Assembly: GCF_026427355.1 (NCBI RefSeq)
Contig: NZ_CP102664.1
Coordinates: 1,178,001-1,242,000, forward strand
Source of the DNA: Sphingobium sp. JS3065
GTDB taxonomy: Bacteria > Pseudomonadota > Alphaproteobacteria > Sphingomonadales > Sphingomonadaceae
Direction of reading: 5' to 3'
Length of the DNA stretch: 64,000 nucleotides
Made by a program: the position numbers and the translations under genes. Below are positions 34,521 to 55,724 of this stretch, piece by piece. The notes under the pieces were generated by a model. The model was not told where the DNA came from. It did not search any database and saw only the letters and a list, made by a program, of their open reading frames with translations. Every line of letters starts with the position of its first letter. The stretch's first letter is position 1.

Positions 34521-36674
34521 ATGACCGAGAAGCCGACGCTGGATCAGTGGGCCGCCGCCGCCGCCAAGGAGGTGAAGGGCAAGGATTTGAACTGGGAGAC
34601 CCCGGAAGGGATCACCGTCAAGCCGCTCTATACTGCGGAAGACGTGACCGTCGATCCGGGCCTGCCCGGTTTCGCGCCGTTCACGCGCGGCGTGCGCGCA
34701 TCCATGTATGCGGGGCGACCCTGGACCATCCGGCAATATGCGGGCTTTTCGACCGCCGAGGAATCCAACGCATTCTACCGGCGCAATCTTGCCGCTGGTC
34801 AGAAGGGCCTCAGCGTCGCCTTCGACCTGGCCACCCATCGCGGCTATGACAGCGACCATCCCCGCGTCGTCGGCGACGTGGGCAAGGCAGGCGTGGCCAT
34901 CGACACGATCGAGGACATGAAGATTCTGTTCGACGGTATTCCGCTCGACCAGATGTCCGTTTCCATGACCATGAACGGCGCGGTGATTCCGATCCTGGCC
35001 TTCTTCATCGTCGCGGGCGAGGAGCAGGGGGTCGAGCGCAAGCTGCTCGACGGGACCATTCAGAACGACATTCTGAAGGAGTTCATGGTCCGCAACACCT
35101 ATATCTACCCGCCCGAACCCTCGATGCGGATCATCTCCGACATTTTCGGCTATACCAGCCGCGAAATGCCCAAGTTCAACAGCATCTCCATCTCCGGCTA
35201 TCACATGCAGGAAGCCGGAGCGACGCAGGTGCAGGAACTGGCCTTCACCATCGCGGACGGCGCGGAATATGTGCGCTACGGCGTGGCGAGCGGCCTTGAC
35301 ATCGACAAGTTTGCGGGGCGGCTGAGCTTCTTCTTCGCCATCGGCATGAACTTCTTCATGGAGATCGCCAAGCTGCGCGCGGCTCGTGTGCTGTGGCATC
35401 GGGTCATGACGAAGCTGGGCGCCAGGGACGAACGCAGCAAGATGCTGCGCACCCATTGCCAGACTTCGGGCGTGTCGCTGACCGAGCAGGATCCCTATAA
35501 CAACGTCATGCGCACCACCATCGAAGCGATGGCGGCGATGCTGGGCGGCACGCAGTCGCTGCACACCAACGCGCTGGACGAGGCGATTGCGCTGCCGACC
35601 GACTTCTCGGCCCGCATTGCGCGCAACACGCAGATCGTCATCCAGGAAGAGACCGGCATGTGCAATGTCGTCGATCCGCTGGGCGGCAGCTATTATATCG
35701 AGGCGCTGACCCAGCAACTGGTCGACGCCGCGCAGGAGATCATCGACCGCGTTGAAGCCGAAGGCGGCATGGCGAAGGCCGTGGCGGCAGGCTGGCCCAA
35801 GGCGATGATCGAGACCGCCGCTGCGGCCCGTCAGGCGCGCGTGGACCGGGGCGAGGACGTCATCGTCGGCGTCAACAAATATCGCCTGGCGAACGAAGAC
35901 CTGCTGGAAACGCTGGAGGTCGACAACACCAAGGTCCGCGAGGCGCAGATTGCCCGCATCAACCGCGTGAAGGCGGAGCGTGACGAGGCGGCTTGCCAGG
36001 CCGCGCTGGAGGCGTTGCGTGCAGCGGCGGCAGGCTCGCAGTCGATTGAAAACAACCTCCTCGCCCATGCGGTCGAGGCGGCGCGCGCCCGCGCCACGCT
36101 GGGCGAAATTTCCGCCGCGATGGAGGACAGCTTCAACCGTTACGGCACGCAGCCGACGCCGGTGAAGGGCGTCTATGGCAAGCCCTATGCGCAGGATGCG
36201 CGCTGGAAACAGGTTCTTGACGGGGTGCAGGCCGTCGAGCGGCGCCTCGGTCGCAAGCCGAAGATCCTCATCGCCAAGATGGGGCAGGACGGTCATGACC
36301 GGGGCGCCAACGTTATCGCGTCCGCTTTCGGGGACATGGGTTTCGAAATCGTGTCGGGGCCGCTGTTCCAGACGCCGGAGGAAACGGTGGTGCTGGCGCT
36401 CGACAGCGGCGTCGATGTGGTCGGCGCTTCCAGCCTTGCGGCGGGGCACAAGACGCTGATCCCCGACCTCATCAGGCAGCTTCGGGAAAAGGGCCGCAAC
36501 GACATCAAGGTGATCGCGGGCGGGGTCATTCCGCCGCAGGATTACGACTATCTCCGTGACGCGGGCGTTCAGGGCATTTATGGACCGGGTTCCAACGTCG
36601 TGGAATGCGCCGCCGATGTGCTGCGCCTCCTCGGCCACAACATGCCCCCCGCGGGGCTGGAGGAAGCCGCTTGA
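34521..36674 (+). CDS. Methylmalonyl-CoA mutase
   Basis: 717 residues: both the catalytic TIM barrel and the B12 domain in one chain. Rearranges (R)-methylmalonyl-CoA to succinyl-CoA, completing propionyl-CoA use. Substrate region [38 protein letters not shown], and [12 protein letters not shown] in the barrel; the cobalamin lower-ligand motif [18 protein letters not shown] (DxHxxG) at about residues 593-610. The homodimeric form implies no separate small subunit. Its stop overlaps the TTG start of bioB. Confidence 0.97.
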
Positions 36675-37771
36675 CCGACCTGAATATTTCCAGTGCTCCT
36701 GCGAAAGCAGGAGCCCAGGGCCCCAAGAGAAGCGCCCAGAACCCTGGGCCCCTGCCTTCGCAGGGGCGCACCGCGTGCGTGCGGTGCGACTGGACCCGCG
36801 ACGAGATCGCCGCGCTGTTCGACCTGCCCTTCAACGACCTGATGTTCGAGGCGCAGTCGATCCATCGCGCGAATTTCCCGCGCAACGAAGTGCAGCTTTC
36901 GACCCTGCTGTCGATCAAGACCGGCGGCTGTCCGGAGGATTGCGGCTATTGCAGCCAGTCGACCGAGGCGGAAAGCGGCCTGAAAGCCACCAAGCTGATG
37001 GACGTGCAGGCGGTGCTTCAGTCCGCTGCGCAGGCGAAGGACCATGGTTCGGGCCGTTTCTGCATGGGTGCCGCATGGCGCAATCCCAAGGAACGGGACA
37101 TGCCCAAGCTCATCGAAATGGTGAAGGGCGTGCGCCAGATGGGCATGGAAACCTGCATGACGTTGGGCATGCTGTCGGCCGGTCAGGCGAAACAGCTCGC
37201 GGATGCGGGGTTGGATTATTACAACCACAATATCGACACATCGCCGGAAAATTACGCCAACGTCATCACCACCCGGACCTTCGAGGACCGGATCGAGACG
37301 CTGGAGAATGTCCGTTCGGCGGGCATCAATGTTTGCTGCGGCGGGATCGTCGGCATGGGTGAGACGCGGAGCGACCGCATCGGTTTCCTCCATGCGCTGG
37401 CTACCATGCCGCATCCCGAAAGCGTGCCGATCAACGCGCTGGTGCCGGTGGCCGGGACCGTGCTGGGCGACATGCTGAAGGACACGCCGCTTGCCAAGAT
37501 CGACGAGGTGGAGTTCGTCCGCACCGTCGCGGTGGCGCGGATCGTCATGCCGCAGTCGATGGTGCGGCTGTCCGCCGGGCGCGAGAGCATGAGCGAGGCC
37601 TGTCAGGCGCTCTGCTTCATGGCTGGCGCGAACAGCATCTTCACTGGCGACAAGCTGCTGACGGCGGCCAATGCCGGGGATGACAAGGACGCCGCTTTGC
37701 TTGGAAAGCTGGGGCTGACGCCGATGATGGCGCAGCCGCACGGGCATCTGGAAGCGGTCGCGGCGAAATAG
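36671..37771 (+). CDS. bioB: Biotin synthase with a repeat-derived N-terminal insertion
   Basis: 366 residues, radical SAM enzyme that inserts sulfur into dethiobiotin. The SAM cluster motif is [13 protein letters not shown] (CxxxCxxC) at about residues 82-94; the [2Fe-2S] ligands lie in [25 protein letters not shown] and [13 protein letters not shown]. The TTG at 36671 overlaps the mutase stop (TTGA). Residues about 9-34 ([15 protein letters not shown]...) are the translation of an intergenic-type palindromic repeat inserted in frame; the family normally goes from a short start straight to [19 protein letters not shown] within ACVRCDW is an alternative start that would skip the insertion. 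It lies inside the operon of a biotin enzyme. Confidence 0.93.
36695..36770. repeat. Palindromic repeat (family B) inside the bioB reading frame
   Basis: Left arm GCTCCTGCGAAAGCAGGAGC followed by CCAGGGCCCC; right arm ACCCTGGGCCCCTGCCTTCG followed by CAGGGGCGCA. The arms pair with one another and each also folds alone. The same type of element is intergenic at 52.9 kb. The frame stays open through it. Confidence 0.88.
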
Positions 37772-37778
37772 AAATAGC

Positions 37779-37877
37779 TCCGTTCGTCCTGAGCGAAGTC
37801 GAACAATTCAACCGAGTAAAGCGAGGTGCCTTCGCTACGCTCAGGCGATGGCTTCGACTTCGCTCAGCCTGAACGGA
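37779..37877. repeat. Family A palindromic repeat (copy A6)
   Basis: CTCCGTTCGTCCTGAGCGAAG at left (one base shorter motif conserved) and CTTCGCTCAGCCTGAACGG at right, with an internal TTCGCTACGCTCAGG. Longest copy in the window; lies between bioB and pccA within the operon. Confidence 0.85.
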
Positions 37878-37910
37878 TTTTGGAACTAAGGACTGGGGCA
37901 AGGACTCAAG

Positions 37911-39896
<1,986 letters not shown>

Positions 39897-52938: not shown

Positions 52939-53010
52939 CGTGTTCCTGCCTAGTCAGGAACCCAGTTCAGACGGCGAAACTAGGCTCCTGCCTGCGCAGG
53001 AGCACGGAGC
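52939..53010. repeat. Intergenic palindromic repeat (family B)
   Basis: GTTCCTGCCTAGTCAGGAAC and GGCTCCTGCCTGCGCAGGAG, two hairpins of the same kind as the element inside bioB. Accounts for the first part of the 195-base gap before asd. Confidence 0.75.
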
Positions 53011-55626: not shown

Positions 55627-55643
55627 CCGTCTGGCATTCACTT

Positions 55644-55724
55644 TCCACCGTTCGGGCTGAGCCTGTCGAAGCCTCTTTCTTCAAGAAAGTAAGGCCCTTC
55701 GACAAGCTCAGGGCGAACGGTGGA
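55644..55724. repeat. Family A palindromic repeat (copy A7)
   Basis: TCCACCGTTCGGGCTGAGCC at left and GCTCAGGGCGAACGGTGGA at right form a long inverted repeat, with a loop containing CTTTCTTCAAGAAAG. It lies between the convergent hydrolase and AMP nucleosidase genes. Confidence 0.9.

Follow-up and report, generated by a model that had tools for sequence, protein, structure and literature searches.

It is already known that REPs and Rickettsia palindromic elements (RPEs) can lie in frame within genes, and intragenic REPs have been recorded in sphingomonads as well (PMC3733652). According to the available text of that paper, the CGTC REPs of alphaproteobacteria, sphingomonads included, have an 8-bp stem, a 4-nt loop and a CCA tail and occur as head-to-head dimers, and some CGTC/GTAG REPs are placed inside open reading frames, where they code for 20–30 amino acids, with tRNA synthetases of E. 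litoralis and S. alaskensis among the targets. The same text states that many N-terminal REPs may be untranslated, and it reports that the REPs of recB occupy one site in two Xanthomonas, whereas those of other genes are at different sites; bioB is not named there among the intragenic targets.

RPEs are likewise palindromes fused in frame into conserved proteins whose genes stay open, and the RPE-bearing enzyme Gmk is reported active, although these elements (105–146 bp) differ from the repeat described here in sequence family and in host lineage (PMC2229807, in the part available). ERIC/RU-type MITEs are also small repeats with open frames that are fused to genes, but they are enterobacterial units of 127, 168 and 103 bp, which are set apart from our repeat by description and not by sequence (PMC2759123, available part). 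RPE and RU elements may thus be regarded as functional parallels. In addition, translation-regulating REPs of E. coli form a hairpin shortly past a stop codon within an operon (PMC12306157, available part, citing Liang 2015), as the repeat in bioB does. In full-text literature searches, no title or abstract among the matches listed dealt with repeats in sphingomonad bioB, and the capture of one N-terminus by several unrelated repeat families was not found in the literature searched.

The repeat reported here lies inside the 5' end of bioB in Sphingobium sp. JS3065, within the window (the whole 64,000-nt stretch of DNA that was analysed). By eye, it is like the CGTC REPs in its 8-bp stem, 4-nt loop, CCA tail and head-to-head dimer. 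However, CGTC-1 REPs carry a CGTC (or TGTC/CCTC) tag and A-T as the first two stem pairs (PMC3733652, available text), and the bioB repeat has neither, as its tag is degenerate (CAGT in the left unit, CGTG in several other copies) and its first stem pairs are G-C and C-G. For this reason we name it CGTC-like and not a member of that group. Unlike the same-site recB case, which involves two Xanthomonas (PMC3733652, available text), several unrelated families reuse one N-terminus in bioB.

The bioB locus and the repeat within it

bioB is flanked by genes for methylmalonyl-CoA mutase and for a biotin-dependent carboxylase (34521–39896). The mutase gene upstream covers 34521–36674 of the forward strand (NCBIfam NF006944, 1212.9 bits against a cut-off of 876) and ends with a TGA stop at 36672–36674 (+). 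bioB follows at 36671–37771 (+) and codes for 366 amino acids when read from TTG; the assignment as biotin synthase is based on TIGR00433 (393.5 bits against a cut-off of 225, residues 40–349, aligned over profile positions 2–306 of 307) and on the CxxxCxxC motif formed by C87, C91 and C94, which we take to be the BioB cluster motif and which is present in 31 of 31 aligned BioB rows, JS3065 counted. At the start of the conserved BioB block (DWTRDEI, 36788–36835, +), residues W41, R43, L49, L52 and F54 are invariant in the 31 aligned BioB, again including JS3065. Further downstream, a biotin-dependent carboxylase alpha subunit is encoded at 37911–39896 (+), for which the subfamily NF006367 (600 against a cut-off of 597) was the only family above its cut-off among the 25 matches listed; operon context would make it a carboxylase of the propionyl-CoA type.

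A profile search gave a single BioB match in the genome, the bioB of this locus, and bioD and an adjacent bioF-type gene, the latter scoring under its cut-off, are placed apart from it (G000:C1:3.01 Mb). As this is the sole BioB match in a genome with bioD and a sub-cut-off bioF-type gene, the enzyme is probably needed by JS3065. A second palindromic repeat, of another family (TCCTGAGCGAAGTCGAA type, family site 37788), occupies 37785–37878 (+, ends by eye) between bioB and the carboxylase gene, a gap with a hairpin z of -4.7; bioB is bracketed by repeats, one inside its 5' end and this one on the 3' side.

The first-pass annotation had proposed an inverted repeat at 36695–36770, and the pairing was borne out. 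The arm pairing at 36695/36696 reached 22 of 25 positions, none of five Markov-simulated windows held any pair of at least 21, and RNA folding of 36660–36800 gave -70.5 kcal/mol (z -4.37), with 0 of 200 shuffles as good; the repeat finder returned no inverted pair over 36600–36860 at its thresholds, whereas folding and the arm-pair scan did show one. The only other place in the 64-kb window scoring 22/25 was 55644–55647, which belongs to an inverted repeat at 55642–55720 with a family C core (one of the families described below) at 55696.

The stretch 36695–36767 is a head-to-head pair of 8-bp-stem palindromes, placed in frame within bioB. The left unit (36695–36717, +) has the stem GCTCCTGC/GCAGGAGC, the loop GAAA and the tail CCA, and the right unit (36745–36767, minus strand) is inverted, with a TGG tail, the stem GCCCCTGC/GCAGGGGC and a 4-nt loop; both were recognized by eye, from the fold and from arm pairing. 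The two units share one design in opposite orientation and fold as one long hairpin. A small extra hairpin, GCACCGC-GTGCGT-GCGGTGC (36768–36787, +, from the fold), adjoins the repeat and contains the alternative start codon GTG.

The bioB frame is open from 36671 to 37771, and also from an ATG at 36605 within the mutase gene, with the repeat placed between TTG and the conserved block, as previously noted. The earlier figure of about 26 added residues is close to what the repeat itself encodes (25 residues, 9–33 of BioB), but the net insertion relative to locus L052 is larger, with 93 nt or 31 codons (mutase-to-DWTR gap of 113 against 20). From the mutase stop to DWTRDEI there are 39 codons in JS3065, as opposed to 7–8 in the same-genus compact loci L112, L114, L115, L116 and L134. 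The Cys-x-x-Cys described as new does exist (C36-V-R-C39), but it lies 3' of the repeat, and its reading as a new metal site was rejected, as locus L118 has D at the first position.

Searching the genome of JS3065 with the bioB repeat gave 39 matches at E <= 10, which were grouped by hand into 19 places. Of these, 14 have E <= 0.02, while the L107 place looks like chance. The repeat is thus multi-copy and found in intergenic DNA of the same genome too. One such intergenic copy is that at 52939–53010 (+), which had been offered for comparison and is of the same family (match G000:C1:1230980–1231005, 88% over 26 nt, E 0.017). The description of a repeat kind found between genes therefore holds for the intergenic copies but not as an exclusive one, since GlyS has an internal copy. 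The genome gave 0 matches for a RAYT mover (Y1_Tnp gene), and a RAYT was therefore rejected as the present mover of the repeat in JS3065; of the 41 genomes sampled in the genus, 12 have a Y1_Tnp gene.

The mutase-bioB junction in relatives

The same insertion is present in L118 (genome G232, same genus), with 94 of 117 nt identical to JS3065. The two tails differ, counted by eye, by ten amino-acid changes with no gap and no stop, and in L118 the TTG is kept, the frame is open and there is no ATG, GTG or TTG between the repeat and DWTR. The loci L052, L112 and L116 have compact sites with the same TTG and without the repeat, which means that an in-frame insertion into the open reading frame of a conserved protein is missing in relatives. 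No relative carried the same residues without the palindrome, which would have refuted the first-pass reading: L118 shows residues and palindrome together, and neither is present in the compact relatives.

Alignment with BioB of other sphingomonads had been suggested as a check on strain-specificity, and the answer is a divided one: the rows closest to JS3065 in the tree (L114, L115, L112 and L116) are without the insertion, but the more distant L118 shares it. L113, also near JS3065, carries another repeat family, out of frame. L118 stands outside the starred six-row set (99/96) that holds the nearest rows of JS3065, and since empty relatives intervene between the two, the distribution requires loss, transfer or a repeated (second) insertion, among which the data give no preference.

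For the wider series, BioB was found in 326 genomes and 120 were fetched, the first 80 by match score and the last 40 hand-picked with open-frame lengths in view, so this sample leans to near relatives. From another set of 80 loci, L055–L080 (26) were excluded from the counts as distant or belonging to other lineages. The 175 loci (JS3065 + 54 + 120) comprised 166 distinct ones, of which 76 have no mutase within 260 nt upstream, and 90 junctions were counted; L010, L141 and L177, whose tails look like repeats but which gave no mutase, stand outside the counts.

Junction gaps were compact (8–62 nt) in 41 of the 90 and long (95–247 nt) in the other 49, and 44 of the long junctions hold a palindromic repeat. 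By eye, these were assigned to families A (13), B (11), C (15), D (4) and E (1), and because two of them (L028 and L197, both C) are weak (z 1.9 and 1.3), the safer repeat counts are 42 of 90, or the 35 of the 44 repeat junctions (gap of at least 90 nt) where the hairpin has z <= -3. In 25 of these 35 the frame is intact from the overlapping start, and 15 (of the 25, and so of all 35) have no ATG, GTG or TTG in the last 15 codons before DWTR. The other 10 have lost the frame or run into a stop, and every one of them has a later start; junctions with neither route number 0 of 35. With the laxer threshold (z <= -1, 43 junctions), 29 are intact (17 without a late start) and 14 are broken, with a late start in 14 of 14. 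The corresponding Fisher p values (0.0016 for the 35, 1.5e-4 for the 43) are to be taken as consistency checks only, because the rows are related and any gene that works has to use one of the two routes. Start relocation is real in those other species whose bioB frame was broken by a repeat. Family D repeats (CACCCTGAACTTGTTTCAGGGT type) have an ATG in the second arm (MLKQVQHDE), which is in frame with bioB in L165 and, as a variant, in L037, where it resembles a mobile start codon; L155 and L162 have the same family.

A tree was calculated from mutase and bioB pieces with the junction excluded (90 rows, 696 columns, 51 of 87 inner branches starred, 13 open). It requires a minimum of 35 changes among seven junction states, 20 of them between repeat and empty, while 100 label shuffles gave means of 45.4 (all states) and 28.6 (repeat/empty) with minima of 38 and 23. 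As the observed values are under the shuffle minima, the junction states are inherited, but only briefly.

Start codon of bioB and competing explanations

The TTG at 36671–36673 (+) overlaps the mutase stop as TTGA, and a GGAGG resembling a ribosome-binding site is found 7 nt before it (36659–36663, +), preceding the TTG in L118, L112, L116 and L052 as well. In the compact L052 and L116, TTG is the only in-frame ATG, GTG or TTG from the mutase stop to DWTR.

It is very probable, in our opinion, that the repeat was captured in frame and that BioB starts at TTG 36671 with a tolerated tail of 39 residues. To put this as a course of events, a palindromic dimer resembling REPs, and belonging to a type that is widespread in sphingomonad genomes, would have entered bioB just within its 5' end, a few codons past a start codon that is locked into the mutase stop. 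The inserted length would have preserved the frame, giving a BioB read from TTG 36671 with a 39-residue tail (9–33 repeat-coded) before the enzyme, and such a tail would survive because the stretch precedes the fold and because the repeat has a Pro-Ala-x-Ala-Gly-Ala-Gln phase without a stop. At this same boundary other sphingomonads would have taken up repeats of other kinds, some of them in frame and some with a start codon shifted downstream. Of the two alternatives first put forward, the translated N-terminal tail is the one supported, given L118, in frame without a later start, and the intact junctions without a late start. We infer translation from TTG 36671 in JS3065, and a start at ATG 36605 would still translate the repeat, so the conclusion is unchanged.

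A different proposal, which we hold to be rather unlikely but which is compatible with in-frame capture and concerns why repeats stay, is that the junction is selected for a hairpin of any family, with a stem shortly past the mutase stop that slows ribosomes or shields the upstream mRNA and a coding tail as by-product, so that one repeat could replace another as a brake between mutase and BioB. It could explain why an in-frame repeat, though of three families, is present in all six rows of the clade L013/L163/L176/L033/L168/L169, and why hairpin energy is kept between JS3065 (-63.5 kcal/mol) and L118 (-66.6 kcal/mol), and in E. coli, REPs that lie less than 16 nt from a stop reportedly reduce translation (PMC12306157, available part, citing Liang 2015). 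However, a helix of at least 6 stacked pairs starts within 15 nt past the mutase stop in only 13 of 44 junctions, while it starts at 16–30 nt in 28 and farther away in 1, and 2 have no such helix; a looser measure (any pair spanning >40 nt) places it within 20 nt in 43 of 44, but this is weaker than the 6-pair helix count. In JS3065 the helix is at 14 nt only by way of outer pairs with bioB codons, and the repeat unit itself is at 20 nt, so the spacing would fit the E. coli rule poorly, and bioB, unlike the downstream gene in the E. coli case (PMC12306157, available part), starts before the hairpin. The count of 6-pair helices made a brake of this kind, and its extended form given below, less likely.

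Moreover, 41 of 90 junctions are compact, and hairpins with z <= -3 occupy the bioB-carboxylase junction nearly as often as the mutase-bioB one (13 of 34 against 13 of 27, for JS3065 and loci with both genes placeable, the carboxylase side being scored over at most the first 400 nt). This similar occupancy argues for a general insertion habit and weakens the idea of the bioB start as a special hot spot. An extended form, in which the bioB start is a selected hairpin slot where unrelated repeats are swapped, a strong stem past the mutase stop sets the ratio of BioB to the neighbouring metabolic enzymes and the frame is kept as the only well-coupled start precedes the stem, is in our view similarly doubtful on the sequences compared; if true, the repeats would be interchangeable, translated regulatory parts.

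The second alternative of the first-pass annotation, that the repeat is untranslated, BioB starts after it at GTG 36779 (36779–36781, +) and the mRNA hairpin controls initiation, seems quite improbable to us. Such a start would give VRCDWTR, which has the spacing of the ATG in L051 (VMRTDW), 10 of the 35 hairpin junctions elsewhere are indeed frame-broken with a later start, and the same has been argued for many N-terminal REPs (PMC3733652, available text). On the other hand, L118 has the same insertion and no late start, the best upstream match before the GTG is AGGGG, which is 12 nt away and inside the stem, and the GTG itself is within the small hairpin at 36768–36787. The valine at this position is encoded by other codons in relatives (e.g., L154, L186 and L189), and frame and codon phase are kept, which is not needed in a 5' UTR. 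Since L118 has no ATG, GTG or TTG after the same insertion, GTG 36779 is most likely an ordinary valine codon.

That the insertion is an assembly artefact or broke bioB into a pseudogene is hardly credible, as no supporting point was found in the analyses made, the same insertion is present in another genome (L118), the frame is open throughout, the TIGR00433 match is nearly full-length and this is the only BioB match in a genome with bioD and a sub-cut-off bioF-type gene.

The probable N-terminal tail and an in-frame repeat in GlyS

In favour of in-frame capture, all 13 family A junctions read the first arm of the repeat in one and the same phase, although it lies 21–45 nt from the start codon. 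The tail gave dN/dS values of 0.53, 0.23, 0.62, 0.54 and 0.45 in five pairs, as compared with at most 0.16 for the adjoining 66 BioB codons in the same pairs. The tail is thus under weak constraint, part of which the palindrome itself may impose. As a protein database query, tail residues 1–42 gave no match, with no candidate sharing three 5-residue words.

In an AlphaFold2 model made with 31 sequences (mean pLDDT 74.8), residues 1–34 have pLDDT < 50 and the block means for residues 41–70 are 94–98; low confidence is not unique to the tail, since pLDDT is also < 50 at 84–93, 95–107 and 357–366. In the E. coli BioB crystal chain 1r30 (369 residues), the first matched residue is 26, so that 25 residues stand before the fold, although part of these is presumably a tag. 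The simplest reading is a tail that is probably disordered and tolerated, and we infer that it is neutral.

The family of the bioB repeat also lies in frame in another gene of JS3065. GlyS (glycyl-tRNA synthetase beta chain, TIGR00211), whose locus (L082/L232, G000:C1:1086526–1088370) lies about 90 kb before the window, holds a family A dimer in frame between conserved flanks and in the same phase as in bioB, together with a shorter family-B-like insert; the two in-frame repeat-like inserts are SAPAQAGAQSGEVGPSPGLLPAQEH and SPLPQAGGVGGG. Among 30 GlyS loci of the genus, sampled from 40 genomes that gave a match, 15 have a loop of 45–67 aa behind NILKK and 15 one of 22–32 aa, and the family A-type stem pattern is found in the DNA of 8 of the 15 long-loop loci. 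The doubt about the start codon does not arise for the GlyS repeat.

What comparison demonstrates, at the level of sequence, is that the repeat was inserted, that its frame is shared, that junction states turn over recurrently and that many species have no later start. For N-terminal in-frame repeats, whether the repeat is translated at all has been open, and what is added here is comparative evidence, drawn from many species, that points to translation through the repeat, and one N-terminus that unrelated repeats reuse. Across sphingomonads, the bioB junction occurs naturally in compact, in-frame and frame-broken states, and several unrelated repeats occupy the one site. This series makes the choice between a translated tail and a relocated start directly testable and shows a route from repeat DNA to protein.
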